Source: Agapetus fuscipes
Lineage: Eukaryota > Arthropoda > Insecta > Trichoptera > Glossosomatidae
DNA: 64,000 bases
Direction: 5' to 3'
Assembly (NCBI GenBank): GCA_951799405.1
Contig: OX637335.1
Location: 18,170,342 to 18,234,341 of the forward strand
The position numbers and the translations under genes are program-made. Below are positions 13,202 through 64,000 of the stretch, in pieces (position 1 is the stretch's first letter; the number at the start of each line of letters is the position of its first letter). The notes under the pieces were generated by a model that did no database searches, was not told the origin of the DNA, and saw nothing but the letters and a program-made list of their open reading frames with translations.

Positions 13202-13479
13202 TTCAGCTTTTGAGTAAATGAAATTTCCCTTTCTACGCCGTTTGCCAATGCATAATTTTGCGACTTAATTTGCGTGTATTTTTTGTATGTAGAAATTCCG
13301 CAATTAAGTACTTTTTCACATTAGAAAGTTAATACTTTTTTTTTCATGGAACTTTTTTTGATGTCCATACAAAATTACGACAAATGTTATAGATTGCTGT
13401 AAGATTATCATGCCGTGAAGTAAAATTGCATACTTAAATTTTACTGTTTATAATAAGAAAAGTTTAAATGTAGGGTAAA

Positions 13480-13750
13480 TTGGTATGCGGCTGACCACCC
13501 ATACTGTAAAAAATGGTTCACTTTGCCAATGTCACCCCTGTTTCAGGGAAGGACGGCAAGAGTTGCAGAGCTTATGTTTATTTGAGATTGGATTTTTATA
13601 TTGTAGGTCCACATGCGGTATGTGTTATTAAATACGAAATACGAAATTATACATGTCTGCTTGTGGGAATGCATTTAATATAAATATCTTAAATGATATA
13701 TATCTTTGCAGCTTAGATTAGATTAGATTAGATTAGATTAGATTAAATGA
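13480..13750 (+). mobile_element. LINE-tail repeat (family T), well conserved
   Basis: GGTATGCGGCTGACCACCC at the start, CACCCCTGTTTCAGGGAAGG, then a tail of TTAGATTAGATTAGATTAG repeated to 13745. Confidence 0.85.
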
Positions 13751-18050: not shown

Positions 18051-18154
18051 GGTTTATTAAATTGGAATTTGTTTTATTTGTAAATGGATATTTTGTATTT
18101 GGATATTATTATTTAGTGATGTATAAAATGTAATTTGTCGTGTGTGTGTGTTCC

Positions 18155-18470
18155 TTGACTTATAGGTTGGTATGCGGCTGACCACCCATGCTGTAAAAAT
18201 GGATCACTTTGCCAATGTCACCCCTGTCTCAGGGAAGGACGGCAAGAATTGCAGGGTGTATGTCCATTTGAGATTTGGTTTTTATGTTGTAGGTTCACAT
18301 GAGGCATGTGCAAGCGCGAACTTGTACGTGTCTGGTTGTGGGAACGCATGTAATGTGAATCTCCAATGTAGCATATCTTTGCAACTTAGATTAGATTAGA
18401 TTAGATTAGATGTAAATTCCCAATATTACATATCTTTGCATCTTAGATTAGATTAGATTATACATTAAAA
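18155..18470 (+). mobile_element. LINE-tail repeat (family T) in its parent LINE 3' UTR context
   Basis: CCTTGACTTATAGGTTGG, GGCTGACCACCCATGCTG, CTCAGGGAAGGACGG, GGTTCACATGAGGCATGTGC, tail (TTAGA)n. A second short tail repeat, ATATCTTTGCATCTTAGATT, follows to 18458. Confidence 0.85.
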
Positions 18471-28794: not shown

Positions 28795-29050
28795 AATAAT
28801 ATTATGTTGATTTATTTGATGAGCGCTATTTTGTATGAATCACACCTTAAAAGCTTTGGTTGCCGATGTGAAAAGCGCCAATATTCAAACAAGACCCAGT
28901 TGCTGTAAGGCTGAAAGTAAGTGATTAATTTTTCAACCCAGCAACAAGCACATTTGATAATTGTAAAAAAAATTATCGCTCCGCCGGGATTCGAACACAC
29001 TACCTTCTAACCACGAGTTCGAAGTTTTAACCTCTAAACTACGGACCGGT
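28795..29050 (-). mobile_element. SINE B, reverse, full length, diverged
   Basis: The minus strand begins at GGTCCGTAGTTTAGAGGTTA (29050), then GTTCGAATCCCGGCGGAGCG, the CTTGTTTGAATATTGGCG body and the 3' end AAATAGCGCTCATCAAATAA. Confidence 0.75.
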
Positions 29051-29745: not shown

Positions 29746-29749
29746 ACAT

Positions 29750-29995
29750 ATTCCTTGACTCATAAATTTGTATGAGGCTGACCACCCATACTGTTAAAAA
29801 TGGTTCACTTTGCCAGTGTCACCCCTGTTTCAGGAAAGGTCGGTAAGAGTTGCAGGGCTAATGTTCATTGCAGATTGGTTTTTATGTTTTAAGTCCACAT
29901 GCAGCATGTGTAAGCGCAAACTTATTCGTGTCTGCGTATACAAATGCATTTAATGTGAATCTTAAATATAATGTATATTTGCAACTTAGATCATA
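29750..29995 (+). mobile_element. LINE-tail repeat (family T)
   Basis: TTCCTTGACTCATAAATTTG, GGCTGACCACCCATACTG, CACCCCTGTTTCAGGAAAGG, CAACTTAGATCATAAAC. Confidence 0.8.
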
Positions 29996-31910: not shown

Positions 31911-31914
31911 ATAT
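31911..31914. other. Target-site duplication (left), ATAT
   Basis: ATAT flanks the LTR element on the left and again at 35195-35198. If the LTR is taken to start one base later, the duplication would read ATATT (5 bp). Confidence 0.85.
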
Positions 31915-32368
31915 TGTTACGTTTTACCTGGGTTCTTTTAATTAAAACACAAGTTTAACACAAGTTAGCCATACAGTTTATTTACACAGACTTTCTTACA
32001 ATAGATTTATTTTTAACAGACTTATTCTAACAGATTTATTTTAACACACTTATTTATTTCGTACAGATTACATTTATTTTACACCATTTTGGTCGCCCTA
32101 GTAACTAGATACTCCTCTGTGTGAGTGCTTCGAAGACTGACTCGCTTCAGCCCATTGTCGCCCTTCTTATAGCGGAACCTAGGGGCCATTCCAGCCTGCC
32201 CTAGAAACTTCCACTACCACAGTTGTATAGACGATTCTGGACATATTTATTTCATGAAGAGTCCATTTCCTACCTACATACACACCTTACAATTACAATC
32301 GTCTGGGCCAGAACATTCTCTCAAAACACACGTACACCAATAAACATCTACCAGTGTATTTCGTTACA
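31915..32368 (-). repeat. 3' LTR
   Basis: 454 bp, paired with 34741-35194. In minus-strand sense it begins TGTAACGAAATACACTGG and ends AAACGTAACA. Several AATAAA motifs lie in its latter part and can serve as polyadenylation signals. Confidence 0.95.
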
Positions 32369-32381
32369 TTATCCCCCCCTT
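32369..32381 (-). promoter_or_regulatory. Polypurine tract
   Basis: Minus-strand AAGGGGGGGATAA directly abuts the 3' LTR, where the plus-strand primer of LTR elements lies. Confidence 0.85.
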
Positions 32382-32406
32382 AGACTGTTCCGCCCCGGAA
32401 CAGTCT
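32382..32406 (-). promoter_or_regulatory. Perfect 11-bp hairpin beside the PPT
   Basis: AGACTGTTCCG, loop CCC, CGGAACAGTCT. It lies between the ORF stop and the polypurine tract. Function unknown; an RNA packaging or processing signal is a guess. Confidence 0.8.
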
Positions 32407-32411
32407 TTTCT

Positions 32412-34367
32412 TTAAGAAGGTACGGGCAGTTTGACCCACAGTTGCATCCAGTGGTCAGGAAAAATGACGTTCCACGGAATTTTCCCCTTAGGGTTTTGCC
32501 CGTCATTGCTGGCTGGTGTGGGGGGGGGGTGCTTTCCTCTTGGCGGCCGGCATGGGCGCCTTTCCTTGGCTGGGGGCACCGCTTTGCGTCCCCGGGCGGC
32601 CACCGCTCCTAGGCCCCGCTTGCTCGCCGGCGTCAAAGGATCAGAATCCTTGGTCGTTGGAGCCGCTCTCCTGCTCGGAAGCGAAGTTCTCACTCTCGCT
32701 CTCGTCCTCTGACTCGCTGGGTTGCTTCCTCCCGCGCCATGCTTGGGTCGTCCCTTCTGCTTGCTCTGCTTGGCTGAGCCCCTGCGGGCGGGGGCGCGGC
32801 GCCTGCGGGAGGGGTGCTTTCCTCTTGGCGGCCGGCATGGGCGCCTTTCCTTGGTTGGGGGCGCCGCCTTGCGTCCCCGGTCAGCCACCGCTCCTCGGCT
32901 CCGCTTGCTCGCCGGCTCCTGCGTCAAAGGATCAGAATCCTTGGTTGTCGGAGCCGCTCTCCTGCTCGGAAGCGGAGTTTTAACTCTTGCTCTCGTCCTC
33001 TGACTCGCTGAGTGGCTTCCTGCCGCGCCATGCTTGGGTCGTCCCTTCTGCTTGCTCTGCTTGGCTGAGCCCCTGCGGGCGGGGGCGCGGCGCCTGCGGG
33101 AGGGAGCGCCCCCCTCCCCCACTGACGGGTCAAAGTCAGAGTCCGCCTCCTGTCCGGAGCCACTCGGGTTGTACGAGCCATCTGAATCCCCTAATTCATC
33201 CCTGCTGACTTTGGGTCCCCGCACTTTGGTTTCCGGATCTGTTTCATACTCCTCGTTAGAGTAACCTCTCTTGACAATAGCAGCAGCGGACCTTCTGGGC
33301 CTGCCTCCCGTGGCCTCGCCGCGGTCAGTCACCGGCCTCTCCTTCATCAGCCCCCTGGCGTGCGAGGAGACCTGCTTTGGCAGCAGCAGGAAGCCCACCA
33401 CCCTGCTGACCAGCTCCGTGGGCGCGCCCCTCTTGTCCAAGCCCAGCTTCTCGCACAGCGTCCGCAGCTGCTTGGGCTCCAGCTTCTGCACCTCCTCCAG
33501 CTTGGCCTTGTGCTCAGGCGTGTCTTTCTCAAACTCGTAGCCCTTGAACTTCTTTTTGTTGCGCTTGATGAGGTTCGTGCGGCACAATTGATTGTACCGG
33601 AACTTGAGGTCCTCCATCTTGAACCTGGAGATGGCCACCTCCACGTCGGGGATGTGGTCGATGGGGATGCCCCGGCCCGCGGGCACGGGCACCGGCGGCT
33701 CCACGGCCTTCTTCTTCTTGGGAGCCTCCTCCACGGCCTCCTCCGCCTTCTTCTTGGGCGCGGGCTTCTTCTTCACACTGTTGGCCTTCTTGGCCTTGCC
33801 CTTCTTGTCCTTGGCGTCCTCATCCTCCTCCTTGGCGTCCGTCTCCTCCTTCGCATCCTTGTCAGCCTTCACCTCGGCCGAGTCACTCTTGCCGTTTTCA
33901 GCCGACTTGACATCATCTTTGTCATCTTTGCTGTCAGCTGCGTCCTCAGCCTTGAGCTGGCCGTTGTTTTTGGCCTTCAGGTCTCCCTTCCCCAACTTCT
34001 GAGACGACTCATCCTCAGTTGACATATCGGCCTTTTTGTCATCCTGATTATCACTTAATTTTACACTATCAGTGTCCACCGACATTTTTAAGGCTAGGTT
34101 TTTAGCCCTCTCCTCCTTCCAACCAGCTAGGTCTTCCCTCAAGCTCTTGAAGTTGGCAGCCATCTTTGTTTTAAACTCTTCCACGGCTCGCTCGCGGTCC
34201 CCTCCAGACGCCATGACAAAATATGCCGGGTCTTCGCCTGACTGTTCCAAGGCCTCCATGAGGCGTGCTTGTAAGGCTGCCTTCCCTCCTGAGGTCTCCA
34301 GGTCCCTCTCCAGAAGCTCATTTTTAAGCTCCGAGACTTTGAGGTCCTTGATGTTCACCTTAGCCAT
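32412..34367 (-). CDS. Chimeric SAP-DEK-like protein of the LTR element (651 aa)
   Basis: Start chosen at 34367 (context AAAAATGG); the frame upstream offers no ATG. Residues 1-48 form a SAP-type helix pair (VSELKNELLERDLETSGGKA), followed by a charged coil to about 95. Residues 100-225 are Lys/Asp/Glu/Ala-rich. Residues 226-335 match the DEK domain: PVPAGRGIPIDHIPDVE, then FKGYEFEKDTPEHKAKLEE, then the DEK SAP-box (LRTLCEKLGLDKRGAPTELV, GFLLLPK). Residues 390-420 are acidic. Residues 423-614 hold two Arg/Pro-rich units of about 97 aa in tandem. The tail NVIFPDHWMQLWVKLPVPS is unlike DEK. The usual DEK C-terminal domain is not seen. DEK is a nuclear DNA-bending and histone-binding chromatin protein. 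An N-terminal SAP segment is a feature I associate with insect Gypsy gag proteins, so a gag-DEK fusion is my inference. The ORF is intronless and GC-rich against AT-rich surroundings. Confidence 0.85.
   Translation of the reverse strand: MAKVNIKDLKVSELKNELLERDLETSGGKAALQARLMEALEQSGEDPAYFVMASGGDRERAVEEFKTKMAANFKSLREDLAGWKEERAKNLALKMSVDTDSVKLSDNQDDKKADMSTEDESSQKLGKGDLKAKNNGQLKAEDAADSKDDKDDVKSAENGKSDSAEVKADKDAKEETDAKEEDEDAKDKKGKAKKANSVKKKPAPKKKAEEAVEEAPKKKKAVEPPVPVPAGRGIPIDHIPDVEVAISRFKMEDLKFRYNQLCRTNLIKRNKKKFKGYEFEKDTPEHKAKLEEVQKLEPKQLRTLCEKLGLDKRGAPTELVSRVVGFLLLPKQVSSHARGLMKERPVTDRGEATGGRPRRSAAAIVKRGYSNEEYETDPETKVRGPKVSRDELGDSDGSYNPSGSGQEADSDFDPSVGEGGAPSRRRRAPARRGSAKQSKQKGRPKHGAAGSHSASQRTRARVKTPLPSRRAAPTTKDSDPLTQEPASKRSRGAVADRGRKAAPPTKERRPCRPPRGKHPSRRRRAPARRGSAKQSKQKGRPKHGAGGSNPASQRTRARVRTSLPSRRAAPTTKDSDPLTPASKRGLGAVAARGRKAVPPAKERRPCRPPRGKHPPPTPASNDGQNPKGKIPWNVIFPDHWMQLWVKLPVPS
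32526..33101 (-). repeat. In-frame tandem duplication of ~291 bp in the DEK-like ORF
   Basis: Unit 1 (33101-32811) and unit 2 (32810-32526) both encode SRRRRAPARRGSAKQSKQKG ... RGRKA.PP.KERRPCRPPRG. Unit 2 lacks two codons (Gln-Glu). High DNA identity points to recent duplication. Confidence 0.85.
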
Positions 34368-34382
34368 TTTTTTTTTTAACAA

Positions 34383-34722
34383 AAATTTAAATTTACTTCA
34401 AAACAAATTAATGTTATTAATTTGTTATAATAAAAATTATAAATAATATAATATTTAAATAATAATGATATTAGATAATGATTATTTACTTTGCTTCGTC
34501 ATCGGCTAATGAGTATTTACAAACACTAACGCAATATTATTAACACGTTATCTATCCACACTTCAATCAAATTTTTAGCGGGTAACCACACGATCGTTTT
34601 TAATTCAAGTTTAATCAGTTTTATTTAAAACTTTTTTTTTTTATTCATCAGTTTTTATTATGTTGTCCACATATATTTTTCAAAAGTCTCAAGCACAGTT
34701 TTTACTTGGTACTTGGTTTTAA
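34383..34722 (-). other. Leader of the LTR element
   Basis: AT-rich 5' untranslated stretch between the primer site and the ORF; no other ORF. Expected place of packaging signals, none recognisable. Confidence 0.6.
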
Positions 34723-34740
34723 ACTTCACACCGACACCAT
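34723..34740 (-). promoter_or_regulatory. Primer binding site
   Basis: Minus strand, one base inside the 5' LTR: TGGTGTCGGTGTGAAG. TGG pairs with the CCA end of a tRNA. Which tRNA is not determined; it would need a 3' end of the type ..CCGACACCA. Confidence 0.75.
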
Positions 34741-35194
34741 TGTTACGTTTTTCCTGGGTTCTTTTAATTAAAACACAAGTTTAACACAAGTTAGCCATAC
34801 AGTTTATTTACACAGACTTTCTTACAATAGATTTATTTTTAACAGACTTATTCTAACAGATTTATTTTAACACACTTATTTATTTCGTACAGATTACATT
34901 TATTTTACACCATATTGGTCACCCAAGTAACTAGATACTCCTCTGTGTGAGTGCTTCGAAGACTGACTCGCTTCAGCCCATTGTCGCCCTTCTTATAGCG
35001 GAACCTAGGGGCCATTCCAGCCTGCCCTAGAAACTTCCACTACCACAGTTGTATAGACGATTCTGGACATATTTATTTCATGAAGAGTCCATTTCCTACC
35101 TACATACACACCTTACAATTACAATCGTCTGGGCCAGAACATTCTCTCAAAACACACGTACACCAATAAACATCTACCAGTGTATTTCGTTACA
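34741..35194 (-). repeat. 5' LTR
   Basis: Near-identical to 31915-32368. Carries the promoter described in the next entry. Confidence 0.95.
34961..34997 (-). promoter_or_regulatory. LTR core promoter (TATA-like box and initiator)
   Basis: Minus strand: TATAAG at 34997-34992 and, 31 nt from its start, TCAGTC at 34966-34961. This spacing and the TCAGT initiator suit an arthropod Pol II promoter. The R region would start near 34965. The same pair exists in the 3' LTR. Confidence 0.65.
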
Positions 35195-35199
35195 ATATT

Positions 35200-35575
35200 A
35201 ATTTCAGTTCTCTCTTGCTCCATCTGAACAGTCCAGAGTTGGGCGCCACTTGGCTGATAGTCAGGTAAGGAGAGAAAAACTGGCTCTGAGCAAAAAATCA
35301 AACTGCGGGGCGACTCTCCAGTGCAAGAAAGCCAGTGGCCCAGTTACTGGCGCGCTCTTACATAACCGGGGAGCCGGCCTTCGAGTCTCCGGGCCTCCTC
35401 TCTAAGAGATCTCTTCTAGAGGAAGAAGAAGTGGATGTGTGTGTGTACTAGCAATAAAGATGAGCGGCCGCCTCAGGGCTGAGTGCGGTGGATATGCGAC
35501 AAGATGAATTGATTGCTTACAATTTTGTAAACCACAAATAACAGTTTTTTTTCGTTAAATAGACGAATTATTTGT
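35200..35575. other. No gene recognised; GC-richer patch
   Basis: 35300-35480 is richer in GC than its surroundings and contains a purine run (AGAGGAAGAAGAAG) and (TG)n. No coding signature. Confidence 0.35.
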
Positions 35576-35577
35576 GC

Positions 35578-35820
35578 TCTTTGACTTCTAAGTTGGTATG
35601 AGACTTACTATACAAACTGTAAAAAATGGTTCACTCTGCCAATGTCATCTTTGTTTCAGGGAAGGTCTGTAAGAGTTGCAGGGCTTATGTTCATTTGAGA
35701 TTGGGTTTAAGTCCATAAGCGGCATGTGTAAGCGCAAATTTGTATGTGTCTGCTTATGGAAATGAATTTAATATGAATCTTAAGTGTAATATATTTTTGT
35801 AACTTAGATTATATATATAT
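35578..35820 (+). mobile_element. LINE-tail repeat (family T)
   Basis: CTTTGACTTCTAAGTTGG, AAAAAATGGTTCACTCTGCC, GTTTCAGGGAAGGTCTG, TAACTTAGATTATATAT. Confidence 0.8.
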
Positions 35821-44219: not shown

Positions 44220-45310
44220 GGGCCCCCAATGGGCTAAATCTGGACCTGCTCACGATAATGGTTTATCATAAGCATCGAACCTCTAGTTACAGCTGCAGCA
44301 TCTTAAGTAAAATAGTCATGGTAGTCACTGAAATTTGATATGAATGATTTTTTATGAAGCACTAAGCAAAAATCCCTACCTCAAAAATAAATAAAAAAAT
44401 CATTAAGTACTTGAGTGTTGAAAAGAATAAACGACACATAAAAAAAATGTGGAATTAAAAAAATCATGTTAATTAACTGGGTCGGCCATAAGTCAAAAGA
44501 AAAAAAACCTACACGCATGTTCTCTCATCGTTTTATGAACACAATCTGCCATAAGGTGTATTTGAGACCAAAAACAACTTTGGCTATTCAAAAAAATATT
44601 TATAGGGTTAGCTTTCTATATATTTAAAAGAATTGAAAATATTTTTTTTTATTTTTTTTTCCTTCAAATCAGCTGGTAATATGCCAAAAACCATTTAAAA
44701 AAGGCTGACTTTCCAGCGCGACTCACTTGTTATTCATAAATATTTCAATGCCAAATATTTCATTTTTCGATAAAGTATTTATTCAGTTAAATTGAGACGA
44801 TTTTCGAAAATTCATTTTTTTCTTATTTACTGAGTTATAAATTTTGTTTCAAAATGTGTTTACGTAATATTTTTTTGTACGCGTTTTTAGTTCCTCCTGA
44901 TCATTTTCCGCAAAAACCACATCGTGGTTAAGTGAAACAAATGTTTTTAATTGTTTTCGTATATATTTCATTTGTCTAACAAAAAGAGGTAACATGTAAA
45001 GGCCTCTTGTAATTTTCGATTTTTGTTAATTTTCTATTTTTTACATAGATGGCGTTGGCCTATCCAATTTGATGGTTAGGCCGACAGAGGTGAAAAAACA
45101 GTTTTCTTGAAGACCGATCGGGACACATGTATACATTATGTTCACATATTATATACGTATAAAATATGCAATAGGTATATGTGTAAATAAAATATACAGA
45201 ATACGCGTAAAAATTCCGATATATGTTGACGGTACGACGGAAAAGAGACATGAACACCATGTCGAGTCGATAGAGTCGATAATAATATAATTTTGTATTC
45301 ATTTTCAGGA
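44220..45310. other. No gene recognised
   Basis: AT-rich region leading to the minisatellite array; no coding or repeat signal found. Confidence 0.4.
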
Positions 45311-45315
45311 TTCCA

Positions 45316-46874
45316 CGACATATCGATAAAAGACAATTCGTCCAACGATTACTCGGCCATAGACAAATCGGTCACACGACACTTCGTCCTCACGACTTTT
45401 CGGCAAACGAAATTTCGGTCAAAGACAAATCGGTCAACGACAACTCGTCCAACAACAACTCGGCCATAGACAAATCGGTCACACGACACTTCGTCTACAC
45501 GACTTTTTGGCCAACGACATTTCGGTCAAAGACAAATCGGTCAACGACAACCCGTCCAAAGACAACTCGGCCATAGACAAATCGGTCACACGACACTTCG
45601 TCCACACGACTTTTCGACCAACGACTTTTCGGTCAACGACATTTCGGTCAAAGACAAATCGGTCAACGACAGCCCGTCCAAAGACCCGGCCATAGACAAG
45701 TCGGTCACACGACACTCCGTCCACACGACTTTTCGGCCAACAACATTTCGGTCAAAGACAAATCGGTCAACGACAACCCGTCCAAAGACAAGTCGGTCAC
45801 ACGACACTCCGTCCACACGACTTTTCGGCCAATGACATTTCGGTCAAAGACAAATCGGTCAACGACAACCCGTCCAAAGACAAGTCGGTCACACGACACT
45901 CCGTCCACACGACTTTTCGGCCAACGACATTTCGGTCAAAGACAAATCGGTCAACGACAACCTGTCCAAAGACAACTCGGCCATAGACAAGTCGGTCACA
46001 CGACACTCCGTCCACACGACTTTTCGGCCAACAAAATTTCGGTCAAAGACAAATCGGTCAACGACAACCCGTCCAAAGACAAGTCGGTCACACGACACTC
46101 CGTCCACACGACTTTTCGGCCAACGACATTTCGGTCAAAGACAAATCGGTCAACGACAACCTGTCCAAAGACAACTCGGCCATAGACAAATCGGTCACAC
46201 GACACTTCGTCCACACGACTTTTCGGCCAACGACTTTTCGGTCAACGACATTTCGGTCAAAGACAAATCGGTCAACGACAACCTGTCCAAAGACAACTCG
46301 GCCATAGACTCGGTCACATGACACTCCGTCCACACGACTTTTCGGCCAATGACATTTCGGTCAAAGACAAATCGGTCAACGACAACCCGTCCAAAGACAA
46401 GTCGGTCACATGACACTCCGTCCACACGACTTTTCGGCCAATGACATTTCGGTCAAAGACAAATCGGTCACACGACACTTCGTCTACACGACTTTTTGGC
46501 CAACGACATTTCGGTCAAAGACAAATCGGTCAACGACAACCTGTCCAAAGACAACTCGGCCATAGACAAGTCGGTCACACGACACTCCGTCCACACGACT
46601 TTTCGGCCAACAACATTTCGGTCCAAGACAAATCGGTCAACGACAACCCGTCCAAAGACAACTCGGCCATAGACAAGTCGGTCACACGACACTCCGTCCA
46701 CACGACTTTTCGGCCAACGACATTTCGGTCCAAGACAAATCGGTCAACGACAACCCGTCCAAAGACAACTCGGCCATAGACAAATCGGTCACACGACACT
46801 TCGTCCACACGACTTTTCGGCCAACGACTTTTCGGTCAACGACATTTCGGTCAATGACATTTCGGTCATATACA
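45316..46874. repeat. Higher-order minisatellite: 15-bp units in ~107/92-bp repeats
   Basis: Basic unit about ACGACAWTTCGGTCA (15 bp, some 16). Seven variant units in fixed order form a 107-bp repeat; a 92-bp version lacks the unit AAGACAACTCGGCCA. About 15 higher-order copies, very similar to one another. CpG-rich. Long stretches are open in several frames on both strands (for example a minus-strand frame repeating DGVSCDRLVYGRVVFG), but no start context, splice or domain suggests a gene; the openness follows from the unit lacking stop words. Confidence 0.9.
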
Positions 46875-46887
46875 ATATATGGTATTC

Positions 46888-47270
46888 AACCGGTCCGTAG
46901 TCTTATGATTTACACTTCTGACTCGTAAATGGAAGATTGTGTTTAGAGGGCTCTTGAGGTGTGATACACAAAAAAACAGCGCTCACCAAATAAATCATCC
47001 TAATTTTATTATTATTATTGTGGGTTCGAATTCCAGCGGAGCACAAAAAAATATAAGTACCATTTATATTTTCAAATATGCCCTTTGCTTGGTGACAAAA
47101 AATCATATACCTTTCCCAAAGCCCGGTCACTAAAGGTCCATCCAGCATTAGAGCAACTGGGTCTTGCTTAAGAATTGGTAATTTCTACAGCGACGACCAA
47201 GCTCGCAGAGGGCTTTTGAGGTGTGATACACACAAAAACAACGCTCACCAAATGAATCATTATTTTTTTT
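46888..47270 (+). mobile_element. SINE B interrupted by a SINE B 3' fragment
   Basis: Head GGTCCGTAGTCTTATGATTT to GGAAGATTGTG (46941). A fragment then runs from TTTAGAGGGCTCTTGAGG to (ATT)n at about 47018, after which the head resumes at GTGGGTTCGAATTCCAGCGG. The word ATTGTG lies on both sides of the fragment as a target duplication. The SINE then continues to GGTGTGATACACAC. Confidence 0.75.
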
Positions 47271-47796
47271 TAATTGTCGAAATAACGAATCGTGAAAATA
47301 AATAGTTTGTTAACGAACAGGTTTTCTAAGATATTCTGTGGAGCACATCTATATGTGACCGAAAGTCGTTTGAACGAAATTTCGTGTGAACGAAAAAACC
47401 TTTCCCAATGACCGGTCACCAAAGGTCCATCCAGCTTTACTTTATCCAGCAACTGGGTCTTGCTTGACAATTGGCGCTTTGTAGCGACGATGACCAAGCT
47501 CGTAAAAATGTCGATAGCTCAATTGGTAGAATGCTTGCATTCCATGCCGAGAGCAAGGGTTCGATCTCAAGGCTTACTCAGCCTTCACAAGAAATGAGAA
47601 CCAGCCCCCTCGGGAGCTGGGAAACCCCCACTTCAAATGAAGTGGTTGGTGTAAAGCCGGCCACTTTACCTCTAAAAATAAATAGGTCCCGAATCCCGAA
47701 GTGACACTAAATACTGTAACTTCTAACTATAAAAACTAACTATGTAACTACTAACTTTATAGTGTAACTACACATAATGTGTAGCTTAGTTGCGTT
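47199..47796 (+). mobile_element. Variant SINE B' joined to SINE A
   Basis: 47199-47500 is nearly identical to 49199-49490. It lacks the tRNA-Gln-like head and instead has GAAAATAAATAGTTTGTTAA and three 15-bp units (GACCGAAAGTCGTTTGAACG...). From CAAGCTCGTAAAAATGTCGA (47505) it enters a SINE A with a deletion after the B box and runs to GTAGCTTAGTTGCGTTC. Confidence 0.7.
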
Positions 47797-48976: not shown

Positions 48977-49495
48977 GACCGGTTTGTAGTTCAGTAGTAA
49001 CACTTCGAACTCTGAATGGAAGGTTGTGGGTACGATTCCCGGTGGAGCAAAAAAAAAACATTTATATTTTCAAATTTTCTCGTCGCTGGGTTGAAAATTC
49101 ATAAACCTTGACCAAAGACCGGTCATCAAAAGGTCTATCCAGCCTTACAGCCACTGGGTCTTGCTTGAGAATTGGCGCTTTCTAGAGCGACGATCAAGCT
49201 CGCAGAGGGCTCTTGAGGTGTGATACACACAAAAACAACGCTCACCAAATAAATCATTCTTTTTTTTTAATTGTCGAAATAACGAATCGTGAAAATAAAT
49301 AGTTTGTTAACGAACAGGTTTTCTAAGATATTCTGTGGAGCACATCTATATGTGACCGAAAGTCGTTTGAACGAAATTTCGTGTGAACGAAAAAACCTTT
49401 CCCAATGACCGGTCACCAAAGGTCCATCCAGCTTTACTTTATCCAGCAACTGGGTCTTGCTTGACAATTGGCGCTTTGTAACACATAAAAACAGC
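48977..49495 (+). mobile_element. SINE B followed by variant B'
   Basis: Head GGTTTGTAGTTCAGTAGTAA, GGTACGATTCCCGGTGGAGC and body to GGTGTGATACACACAAAAAC, then from about 49258 the B' segment that duplicates 47199-47500, ending GCGCTTTGTAACACATAAAA. Confidence 0.75.
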
Positions 49496-55478: not shown

Positions 55479-55735
55479 GGGTTCCTTGACTTATAGGTTG
55501 GTAAGCGGCTGACCACCCATGCTGTAAAAATGGTTCACTTTGCCAATGTCACCCCTGTTTCAGGGAAGGACGGCAAGAGTTGCAGGGTGTATGTCCATTT
55601 GAGATTTGGTTTTTTATGTTGTAGGTTCACATGAAGCATGTGCAAGCGCGAACTTGTACTTGTCTGGTTGTGAGAATGCTTGTAATGTGAATCTTCAATG
55701 TAACATATCTTTGCAACTTAGATTAGATTAGATTA
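55479..55735 (+). mobile_element. LINE-tail repeat (family T), nested in SINE A
   Basis: TTCCTTGACTTATAGGTTGG to a (TTAGA)n tail ending GATTAGACAT. GACAT is duplicated (55474-55478 and 55731-55735). Confidence 0.85.
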
Positions 55736-55814
55736 GACATCCTCGGTGGGATTCGAACCCGAGCTCTCGGCATAGAATCCAAGCCCCCAACCAACTGAGC
55801 TATGAACCGGGCAT

Positions 55815-58951: not shown

Positions 58952-61489
58952 TGCACAACAGGTTTCCCTTTTTACAGTGCACCCTCACACAGTCATTAAC
59001 AAGCTGGGAGGAGCTCTTTAACTAGATCTTTGAATGATTCTAAGTTAATGTAAAAAATGTCTATGTCAGCGGAATTAATCAGAGTAACACTCCGAGTTAA
59101 GGCATGTTGTGCCATGACGTCGGTACGGGACAGCGGTACATGAAAAAGTTCATGCCGTCTTCCCCGGCCGTAGCCATCTGGCACATAAAGCTCAAAACTC
59201 TCTAACAGGGTGGGGCTGTCAATTAAGCCGTTAATGATCTTGTAACAAAGCACCATAAGAGAACCGTTGCGCCGAGATTCCAGGCTCCTGGAGCTGGTTT
59301 TCTCAAGTAATTCCTCATGGTGCATAAACTTGGGATAATTCCCATGTATTCTCATGAGGAGGTACCTCAAAAACTTTTTTTGAATTTGCTCCAAAAGATC
59401 TACATACTTCCGCTGATACGGGGCCCAAACCTCGACAGCGTACTCTAATTTAGAACGTACAATACAGTTGAAGACATCCACCATAGCTCTCGGTGACTCA
59501 AAATTATTGCTAATTCTGATCACAAAGCCCAATAACTGGTAGCATTTCGTCGTCAACTGTGTTATATGTTCTGTAAACTTCAGACCAGGATCAAAAACTA
59601 CGCCCAGGTCCCTAAATGAAAAGACACGAGCCAGTATCGACCCACCAATACTGTACTCATGGATTATGGGACAAGCGGATCTTGTGAATGACATGACAGA
59701 ACACTTGCTAATGTTGAAGTTCAATCCATTATTATTGGACCACATCAGCAGAGAGTTCAAATCCATCTGTAAATTAATACAGTCTTGAAAATCTTTGATT
59801 TCTGTATAAATTTTCATGTCATCAGCGTAAAGAAGACAAGAACTATTTTTGATCTTGTCCGCAATGTCGTTAATGAACACAATGAAGGCTAGAGGGCCTA
59901 AATTAGAGCCTTGAGGAACTCCTGAAGTTGGAAAAAAATTAGCCGAATGTTGGTCATTTATTTGCACAAATTGGCTTCTGTTTTTAAGAAATGAAGAGAA
60001 AAAGATTAAGAGAGGTTTTGTAAAACCAAAATCGTCCATCTTCTTCAAAAGAACATCATGATTCACACGATCAAACGCCTTGGAGAAATCTGTATATATT
60101 ACATCAGTTTGCCTGCGAGAATCCAAGTTGAGGGCAATATTTCTACTGAGGGTGAGTAGATTTGATACTGTGGATCTCTTGGGCAGAAATCCGTGTTGGT
60201 GTATGTTGATTCGGGGCTTGATTTGCCACATAAGGTTTTTGTGTATCAAGCACTCAAACACTTTGGCGAAACTTGATAAAATAGAAATCGGCCTATAATT
60301 TCTAACATCACTTTTATCATTTGACTTATGTACTGGCATGACTCTTGTTATCTTCCAGGCTGATGGATATGTACATGTCTTCAGGGATAAGTTGAAGATG
60401 AAACATAAGGGTTGAGCAAGGGGCTTAGCCATAGAAGATACAATTCTCGGGGGAATGTTGTCAGGGCCAGTTGCTTTATTGGATTTTAATCCAAGCAGAT
60501 AAGTCTTCACCTCAGTCAAAGAAAAAGGACTGAGTGATATGGAAGATTGCTCGTGCTTACCATGGGGGGACTCAGATAAATCTACGTGAGGGGTCTGGGT
60601 GCTGTAGACCGATTGGAAATACTTAGCAAAAGTTTCCGATATTATTCTGGGATCAGATATAATCTGATCTCCATCAGAAAGCTGAAAAGTTGTATTACCA
60701 CCGGTCCTGCTGGATCTGATATAAGACCAGAATTCCTTGGAATCACATCCTATCCCAGTCTGAATCTTACTCATATACAATTTGTGTGCTTCCTTTATAT
60801 TATGTTTAACTTGCGCTCTCTTTGTAGAGAAAGCCTTATAATTGCTTACACTTTTATTTTTTAAGTAATTTTTGTGCAAGCGTTCCTTACACTTGATATT
60901 AGCAATGATGCTACTATTAAACCATACTGGGTAAGTGGAGTTACATTTGGCAGCGTATTTTTTACATGGAGCACACAAATTACATATTTTCAATAAAACA
61001 TTATAAAAGTATTTTACAGCGGTATCAATATGTTTACAATTATATAGGTCAGACCAATCATAAAAACTAAGTATATTCTTACATCTATCAGTGTTTAAGT
61101 ACTTAAAATTAATTATTTTGTTCCACCTAAATATATAGTCAAAGTCGGTAACATTAATATTAAAATTATTATTATCCACATTGTGAATATTATTTATATG
61201 CCTATCGTCGCTAGGAGTGGATCTGGGATGTGCTTGCAGTCGTCCACAGGCCAGAGGCGTAGTGTTCAGCCTCGCGGTGACTGCAAGCGTGGGGTGATGG
61301 CGATCTTCACTCACTAGGGGCTCCAGGCAGCGCACCACTTTACATAATATATTTTTATTACTAATTACTAAATCAAGCATGTTGTTGTAGCCATTTTTGA
61401 TTGTATTACACTGTTCTAAATTATTAGCACTTAAGAAATAAGAGTAGTCAAGCAGGACAGAATCGCTCTCATTATTAAGATTAAAATCT
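58906..61489 (-). mobile_element. Jockey-like LINE, 5'-truncated
   Basis: Minus orientation: broken ORF2, a 45-bp 3' UTR and a 45-nt poly(A) (58906-58950 as T). The 5' end lies inside the endonuclease domain and abuts MITE family 1 at 61487-61489. No target duplication visible. Confidence 0.9.
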
Positions 61490-61491
61490 CC
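58996..61491 (-). CDS. Jockey-like LINE ORF2, 3' part (endonuclease end plus reverse transcriptase)
   Basis: The frame is uninterrupted from the breakpoint: GDFNLNNESD (endonuclease motif) at about 61489-61460, then through MLDLVISNKN (Met at 61380). Counting from that Met: RT motifs SNKATGPDNIP (300-310), RNYRPISILSS (360-370), TDFSKAFDRVNH (430-441), SGVPQGSNLGP (486-496) and the catalytic YADD (518-521), then SKCSVMSFTR and a C-terminal LESRRNGSLM...LPAC. ORF2 of such elements makes an endonuclease/RT for target-primed reverse transcription. With most of the endonuclease gone it cannot transpose, though the RT is intact in sequence, so the insertion is young. The short 3' UTR and poly(A) suit the Jockey clade; CR1-like assignment is the main alternative. 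Confidence 0.9.
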   Translation of the reverse strand, partial: GDFNLNNESDSVLLDYSYFLSANNLEQCNTIKNGYNNMLDLVISNKNILCKVVRCLEPLVSEDRHHPTLAVTARLNTTPLACGRLQAHPRSTPSDDRHINNIHNVDNNNFNINVTDFDYIFRWNKIINFKYLNTDRCKNILSFYDWSDLYNCKHIDTAVKYFYNVLLKICNLCAPCKKYAAKCNSTYPVWFNSSIIANIKCKERLHKNYLKNKSVSNYKAFSTKRAQVKHNIKEAHKLYMSKIQTGIGCDSKEFWSYIRSSRTGGNTTFQLSDGDQIISDPRIISETFAKYFQSVYSTQTPHVDLSESPHGKHEQSSISLSPFSLTEVKTYLLGLKSNKATGPDNIPPRIVSSMAKPLAQPLCFIFNLSLKTCTYPSAWKITRVMPVHKSNDKSDVRNYRPISILSSFAKVFECLIHKNLMWQIKPRINIHQHGFLPKRSTVSNLLTLSRNIALNLDSRRQTDVIYTDFSKAFDRVNHDVLLKKMDDFGFTKPLLIFFSSFLKNRSQFVQINDQHSANFFPTSGVPQGSNLGPLAFIVFINDIADKIKNSSCLLYADDMKIYTEIKDFQDCINLQMDLNSLLMWSNNNGLNFNISKCSVMSFTRSACPIIHEYSIGGSILARVFSFRDLGVVFDPGLKFTEHITQLTTKCYQLLGFVIRISNNFESPRAMVDVFNCIVRSKLEYAVEVWAPYQRKYVDLLEQIQKKFLRYLLMRIHGNYPKFMHHEELLEKTSSRSLESRRNGSLMVLCYKIINGLIDSPTLLESFELYVPDGYGRGRRHELFHVPLSRTDVMAQHALTRSVTLINSADIDIFYINLESFKDLVKELLPAC

Positions 61492-61976
61492 CCTTCAGTG
61501 CTTGTTGGACTTGTTTTATCTACCAGTTGATTCAAAGACGATCTTTCAATGAAATTGTGTTAAATATCACATTCCTCACAATATGAGCTAAGAAAAATAC
61601 ATAAAACACGATAATGTAAGAGTTTTTTTTTTTTAATTTTTATAAAAAATTTCAAGTTTTCATAAGACAAGTCCAGTGGCGAAGGGTGCCATATAACTCG
61701 ATTCCCATCGGCTTCCATTTTAAAATGAGGCAACAAAGAAGTTATAAAATATAGGCACAAGGTAAAAAAAATACTTTTAAAACCAAAGAAACAATACGTA
61801 TTTTCCCCCCATTGAAACCATGCAGTCTACTTTATTATCATTTTTGCCTCATTTTAAAAGGGAAACCGATGGGAATCGAGTTGTAAACACATTGGTCCAG
61901 TAAACATTCAAGCATTGCTCCTGTGAAATTACCTCTGATGGAGGTAAGACAAACAAGTACTAAGGGGACGATGAGT
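61487..61976 (+). mobile_element. MITE family 1 with a nested foldback
   Basis: Left TCTCCCCTTCAGTGCTTGTT; right, inverted, TCGTCCCCTTAGTACTTGTT. Blocks TTTCAATGAAATTGTGTTAA and GAAATTACCTCTGATGG match 40846-41113. The extra length is the foldback at 61672-61907. Confidence 0.75.
61672..61907. mobile_element. Foldback element nested in MITE family 1
   Basis: AACTCGATTCCCATCGGCTT ... TTTTAAAATGAGGCAA and its complement TTGCCTCATTTTAAAA ... CGATGGGAATCGAGTT. GTCCAG flanks both sides (61671 and 61903). Confidence 0.65.
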
Positions 61977-62514: not shown

Positions 62515-62775
62515 TATGTTCCTTGACTTATTGGTTAGTATGCGGCTGACCACCCATGCTGTACAAATGGTTCACTTTGCCAATGTCATCCCTGTTTCAG
62601 GGAAGGACGGCAAGAGTTGCAGGGTGTATGTCCATTTGAGATTTAGGTTTTATGTTGTAGGTTCACATGCGGCATGTGCAAGCGCGAACTTGTACGTGTC
62701 TGCTTGTGAGAATGCATATAATGTGAATCTCTAATGTAACATATCTTTGCAACTTAGATTAGATTAGATTGAATA
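62515..62775 (+). mobile_element. LINE-tail repeat (family T) in LINE 3' UTR
   Basis: TTCCTTGACTTATTGGTTAG, GGCTGACCACCCATGCTG, CTGTTTCAGGGAAGGACGG, (TTAGA)n tail. Confidence 0.85.
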
Positions 62776-63902: not shown

Positions 63903-64000
63903 TTGAACGACGTTACCATGTTGAAAGCACCGGTTCTCATCAGATCACCGAAGTTAAGCAACATTGGGCGCGGATGCTACTCGGATGGGTGACCGCTCAG
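63903..64000 (+). rRNA. 5S rRNA-like sequence, cut by the window edge
   Basis: Aligns without gaps to the first 98 or so bases of an arthropod 5S rRNA: GATCACCGAAGTTAAGCA (loop B/helix III) and GGGCGCGG, then CTCGGATGGGTGACCGC (internal promoter box C area). The first ~20 bases are diverged (starts TTGAACGACG) and there are scattered changes, so it may be a pseudogene or a 5S-derived SINE head rather than a working gene. Confidence 0.75.

Follow-up and report, generated by a model that had tools for sequence, protein, structure and literature searches.

How does the coding sequence of a chromatin protein come to lie between the two long terminal repeats (LTRs) of a retroelement, and has it travelled with that element? 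The question is raised by a stretch of the genome of Agapetus fuscipes (Trichoptera; contig OX637335.1 of assembly GCA_951799405.1, positions 18,170,342 to 18,234,341 of the forward strand). This stretch, here called the window, is 64,000 nt long. An original prediction, made from the letters alone, had described positions 31915-35194 as a young LTR retroelement whose only cargo is a DEK-like chromatin gene, and as a mobile vehicle that spreads this host gene. We found that the unit at 31915-35194 is a fairly young non-autonomous LTR retroelement. To the reading that it was made by LTR-mediated retroposition, with capture of a DEK complementary DNA (cDNA), we assign a probability of about 0.75.

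Structure of the element

The LTR element is complete and lies on the minus strand, so that the right-hand copy of the repeat (34741-35194) is the 5' LTR and the left-hand copy (31915-32368) is the 3' LTR. Each LTR is 454 bp long, and the two are separated by four substitutions (99.1% identity; divergence 0.88%, 95% interval 0.24-2.2%), in agreement with the roughly four differences first predicted. No further match to the LTRs was found by blastn within the 64-kb window. On the plus strand their termini read TGTTACG...TTACA and are of the TG..CA type (TGT...ACA). The sequence ATAT stands directly outside both ends of the element (31911-31914 and 35195-35198) and forms a target-site duplication, which at 4 bp is weak when taken alone. 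Within the LTR, a TATAA motif starts at base 198 and a TCAGT motif at base 229, a spacing of 31 nt; five AATAAA motifs follow downstream of TCAGT (bases 291, 311, 329, 358 and 387), and a sixth is found at base 118.

The sequences just inside the LTRs also resemble those of a retroelement. One base from the 5' LTR lies TGGTGTCGGTGTGAAG (34724-34739), which starts with TGG and resembles a primer-binding site; it is followed by an AT-rich leader (34368-34723), the GC content of 34368-34741 being 23%. At the other end, the polypurine tract AAGGGGGGGATAA (32369-32381, minus strand) adjoins the 3' LTR, and beside the tract lies a 9-bp perfect inverted repeat, GACTGTTCC / GGAACAGTC (32383-32405). 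The ATAT duplication, the primer-site-like sequence, the polypurine tract, and the TATA plus TCAGT promoter had all been predicted, and all of them can be read in the sequence. The interior differs from the rest of the window in composition: in 1-kb bins, the GC content is 54.5% at 32001-33000 and 61.5% at 33001-34000, while the remaining 62 bins range from 27.9% to 48.7%.

A chance pairing of two unrelated solo LTRs was rejected on the grounds of the target-site duplication, the primer-site-like sequence, and the polypurine tract. For the same reasons, we regard it as extremely improbable that the unit is an ordinary host retrogene, of SAP-DEK type, caught between two such solo LTRs. Its compact open reading frame (ORF) and codon-biased DEK core, both described below, would suit a retrogene. 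Against this stand the 99.1% identity of the LTRs, a target-site duplication that lies outside the whole unit, and the fact that the LTRs are adjoined on their inner sides by a primer-site-like sequence and a polypurine tract.

Coding content of the element

One long ORF fills most of the interior (34367-32412, minus strand). It comprises 651 codons and a stop when counted from an ATG, and 656 codons when counted from a TTG five codons upstream. A Pfam search of the ORF with E-values up to 10 returned a SAP domain at residues 6-41 (PF02037, E 9.9e-12; 34245-34352), as well as SAP_new25 and Rio2_N below their cut-offs. The same search returned no pol domain (polymerase, protease, or integrase); thus, the element would need enzymes supplied in trans.

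The greater part of the ORF is related to DEK. Solved chains named Protein DEK match it (among them 8kcy, E 1.8e-12, and 2jx3, E 1.9e-11), and two insect proteins match it with E-values of 3.1e-64 and 1.1e-53, one of them named Protein DEK and the other named 'hypothetical' and bearing the same DEK_C domain. The insect proteins come from two moths, Scirpophaga incertulas (P0001) and Eumeta japonica (P0002). They were the two matches among the 7996 scored candidates sharing most words with the query, and within that candidate sample the two moths have the nearest DEKs. When residues 222-345 alone served as the query, there was one match among 77 candidates, and P0001 was not among the matches. 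The DEK core (pseudo-SAP/SAP) occupies residues 225-340 (33348-33695), and residues 230-443 are 53% identical to the Eumeta DEK over 221 aligned columns. Between residues 225 and 339, the ORF keeps 63 of the 100 positions that are identical in both moths, a count that has no baseline; relative to both moth proteins, the core has a gap of 4 residues. A stretch reading GGRPRRS...DSDFDP follows the core in P0001 and P0002, and it is found in the element as well. From residue 95 to about residue 450, the DEK homology runs without inserted non-coding sequence. The prediction of a single 651-codon ORF, with DEK-type coding sequence apparently free of introns in the place of gag-pol, was supported by the ORF listing, by Pfam, and by the DEK matches.

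Homology to the Scirpophaga protein starts at a common KMS motif (residues 94-96). The methionine at residue 95 (34083-34085), which stands in KMSVDTDSVKLSDNQDDKK...STEDESSQ, aligns with that of KMSGDTDKAKISDNQDEDKK...STEDESSQ in P0001, so that KMSVDTD of the element faces KMSGDTD at Met 35 of the moth protein. From this alignment we infer that Met 35 is the true start of DEK, in which case the 34 residues before it would be a prediction error.

Judged from these comparisons, the ORF is a chimera, in which a 94-residue N-terminus with a SAP domain is joined to a truncated DEK that lacks DEK_C (PF08766); Pfam did not find this domain in the ORF, and it is present in both P0001 and P0002. The SAP domain is of a DNA-binding type. 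In a low-confidence structure model, the SAP domain is followed by a long helix at residues 58-97; the model of the whole ORF had a mean predicted local distance difference test (pLDDT) score of 44.8, which is too weak for use. By its position and its general resemblance, the N-terminus is probably the beginning of a Gag protein. A title-level literature search for SAP-domain Gag proteins gave nothing relevant.

The predicted cargo, a DEK-like host chromatin gene, is thus right as far as the core homology goes. Compared with the DEK protein, however, the element ORF begins with 94 additional residues that include a SAP domain, has no DEK_C, and has a tail that is frame-changed and duplicated, so that to call the cargo a host chromatin gene would be too simple. 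The GC content at third codon positions is 0.94 over residues 225-350, and 0.5-0.6 both in the N-terminus and in the first DEK residues; since the latter values are found on both sides, they provide no marker of the SAP/DEK junction. The value of the core, amid bins of 28-49% GC, fits a codon-biased source gene with little drift since, though it is no test of selection.

Frame changes and duplication in the tail

The in-frame alignment to DEK weakens beyond about residue 445. An alignment that allows changes of frame tracks both moth DEKs further, through frames 0, 2, 0, and 2, and tblastn of P0001 with the low-complexity filters off also matched the second frame. As a control, residues 448-532 of the ORF were aligned with 150 residues of each DEK, and the scores were compared with those of 200 residue shuffles and 200 codon-shuffled DNAs. 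The frame-changing scores were 122 for P0002 and 107 for P0001, and for each protein they were reached by 0/200 residue shuffles and 0/200 codon shuffles; the shuffle maxima were 77 (P0002) and 93 (P0001) for residues, and 84 (P0002) and 80 (P0001) for codons. When the frame was kept fixed, the scores fell to 66 (P0002) and 88 (P0001), which 6/200 and 2/200 residue shuffles reached, respectively. Judged by the in-frame scores and the shuffles, P0002 thus supports frame changes more strongly than P0001 does.

The tail also contains a tandem duplication (32519-33104) with units of about 0.29 kb, whose copies at 33104-32804 and 32813-32519 overlap by 10 bases at the join. The ORF remains open across it. 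The copies are separated by 18 changes in 295 positions (6.1%, interval 3.7-9.5%) and by one 6-base indel. These 18 changes are split 6/6/6 among the codon positions, and 12 of them alter a residue in the frame of the ORF; hence, nothing in the tail points to constraint. A figure of 0.0035 for the chance of such an open tail was discarded, because a random-sequence null is unfit for a tail derived from coding DNA. DEK homology is lost at a run of ten C (minus strand, 32520-32529), where we place the 3' junction between DEK and the element; this run is a plausible template-switch point.

This apparent lack of constraint bears on whether the fusion serves the element. If it does, the SAP and helical N-terminus would join Gag particles, the DEK part would bind chromatin, by tethering of the preintegration complex or as a defence against silencing, and the ORF would be kept by selection. 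The fusion is in frame, the ORF is intact, the third-codon GC of the core is 0.94 inside an AT-rich region, and the N-terminus has a SAP domain, all of which would agree with such a role. The tail, in contrast, seems unconstrained. We consider this role improbable. The fuller version, that of a propagating family whose sole protein, a SAP/Gag-DEK fusion, binds chromatin for the element in integration tethering or in escape from silencing, with DEK as a hijacked targeting factor, is in our estimate distinctly improbable. Our guess is that the protein is cargo slowly losing its function.

Probable order of events and proposed mechanism

LTRs are normally identical at insertion. Since the LTRs (4/454) have diverged far less than the tail copies (18/295; Fisher P 6e-5), the tail duplication is probably older than the insertion. 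The DEK cargo thus probably went through an earlier round of transposition before the present insertion. The argument depends on when the duplication arose: if after the capture, then at least one earlier transposition of the DEK-bearing element must have taken place; if the duplication was already present in the host DEK gene, the argument falls.

This weighs against a one-off retrocopy, in which capture would have left a single chimeric insertion that has been immobile since and is decaying as a pseudogene. Such a history agrees with the presence of only one copy in the window, with the missing DEK_C and the 4-residue gap in the core, and with tail changes that look unconstrained. It is at odds with a duplication diverged by 6.1% beside LTRs diverged by 0.9%, which needs an earlier round if the duplication followed capture, and with an ORF open over 651 codons. 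On balance we think it unlikely.

In the mechanism that we favour, LTR-mediated retroposition with capture of a DEK cDNA, the process would have begun in a virus-like particle. There, the reverse transcriptase, while copying the RNA of a Ty3/gypsy-like parent, would have jumped to a spliced DEK messenger RNA (mRNA), and then back. The DEK cDNA, fused in frame, would thereby have replaced everything between the gag start and the 3' end of pol. After the capture, the DEK tail would have gained its frameshifts and its tandem duplication. The altered element would then have transposed again, transcribed from its own LTR and inserted at the present site by enzymes supplied in trans. Template switching between element RNA and packaged mRNA is a route described for LTR-mediated retrocopies in two reviews, which also describe template switching at microsimilarity (PMC5408686, PMC8232201), and a study of Plutella xylostella reports joins between gag and cDNA (PMC9674220). 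The layout of the element, with its own 5' end and a short coding start, a cellular sequence in frame, and its own 3' end, fits retroposition as described there.

Of this account, the sequence itself shows the LTRs, the target-site duplication, the chimeric ORF with DEK in frame behind a SAP N-terminus, the lack of any pol domain in the Pfam search, and the much lower divergence of the LTRs than of the duplication; the polypurine tract and the promoter and polyadenylation motifs also speak for it. We infer the Gag origin of the N-terminus, the join at the DEK start codon, the template switching, the class of the parent, the supply of enzymes in trans, and the gain of the frameshifts and the duplication after capture. 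A Ty3/gypsy-like parent is suggested by position and general resemblance.

Several points weigh against this account. The primer-site-like sequence TGGTGTCGGTGTGAAG matches no transfer RNA (tRNA) known to us. Met 35 of P0001 lies inside one deposited protein and is not its annotated start, and the Eumeta protein has no KMS start stretch, so that a single protein supports the 5' join. The N-terminus had no protein match at E-values up to 10 among 253 candidates (eligible size about 358-1139 aa), so that its Gag origin is no more than probable. The duplication could predate the capture and have arisen in the host DEK gene, and gene conversion between the LTRs could make them seem younger than they are. 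Finally, neither a parent element nor a further copy nor a host DEK gene with introns came to light, the search for copies and parents having covered the 64-kb window, viral contigs, and phage records; the last two are poor places for relatives of arthropod elements. In the viral contigs, there were 17 pattern matches with the ORF, 3 with the N-terminal 93 residues, and 0 and 0 with two short LTR/polypurine patterns, but no relative could be confirmed among them; the phage records held no match to the 3' LTR. A 19-base match in a bacterial contig was taken as chance. The prediction of a mobile vehicle that spreads a host chromatin gene goes beyond what the single insertion in the window demonstrates.

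Comparison with known gene captures

LTR-mediated retrocopies of animals are reportedly the subject of Tan et al. 2016. As outlined in the reviews, they share with the present element a spliced cellular coding sequence between LTRs and a proposed origin by template switching (PMC5408686, PMC8232201). Here, an element-like N-terminus precedes the cellular sequence in the same frame, and the duplication in its tail suggests that the element has transposed more than once. Maize Bs1 is likewise an LTR element, and its hybrid ORF includes sequence transduced from cellular genes; its genes are different and it belongs to a different kingdom, whereas the cargo here is DEK (PMC5408686). Bdelloid LTR elements with a captured ORF3 likewise bear an extra ORF, yet they keep gag and pol (PMC5408684), while the present element shows no pol and at most the start of gag.

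The Pxyfem/PxyMasc retrocopies of the diamondback moth are again insect cases, in which incomplete cDNA is fused to gag-type fragments of LTR elements. They lie in W-linked arrays in which the authors were unable to identify LTRs (PMC9674220), whereas LTRs and target-site duplication are intact here. In that moth, W-linked PxyMasc cDNA pieces beside gag fragments yield silencing RNAs (PMC9674220), and the present element might by the same logic give rise to small RNAs that target the host DEK gene. Its ORF is in sense orientation to the LTR promoter, however, so that this insertion alone yields no antisense RNA, and we hold such a role to be very unlikely. Among the titles listed in a search of the literature, none concerned a DEK-carrying LTR element, which does not prove that there is no such report.

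Neighbouring features in the window

The right flank of the element (35195-35540, minus strand) resembles the end of another LTR followed by a leader. Within it, 40-50 bases from the insertion, lies TGGCGCCCAAC (35238-35248), which we take to be a primer site of tRNA-Lys type. To judge by this resemblance, the DEK element may have inserted into an older LTR element. Neither gag nor pol left a recognisable remnant in the flank at 35195-35540, as far as a listing of the adjoining stop-to-stop frames shows.

Elsewhere, a minus-strand frame of 832 codons at 58996-61494 has a reverse transcriptase domain (PF00078, E 1.1e-32) and is probably a non-LTR element. A dense, near-tandem repeat array at 45205-46921 is partly open as a frame rich in R, Q, and H, and the frame at 45577-46182 within it had no Pfam match. 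A direct repeat of about 460 bp (47018-47483 and 49024-49480) has 90% identity between copies 2.0 kb apart. Dispersed repeats of about 250 bp, roughly 70-95% alike, are found at 1046-1294, 13472-13738, 18147-18405, 29748-29995, 35578-35813, 55481-55737, 62516-62770, and other positions, and are possibly short interspersed nuclear elements (SINEs). A predicted tRNA-Thr at 28976-29048 lies inside a copy of a 77-base repeat family (28972-29048), and thus perhaps reflects a tRNA-derived repeat rather than a gene. A match to 5S ribosomal RNA (63903-64000, 63.1 bits) is ended by the edge of the window.

Implications

Gene capture by LTR elements is already known; DEK is unusual as the captured gene. 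The element looks like a well-preserved case of LTR-mediated gene capture, with a truncated DEK in frame. Animal LTR elements with a recognisable cellular gene in frame, intact LTRs, and a target-site duplication are good material on how host genes are picked up. If the DEK part is still expressed and under selection, a chromatin protein would thereby be tied to the targeting or silencing of retroelements; otherwise, the element would be a well-preserved capture part-way through decay.

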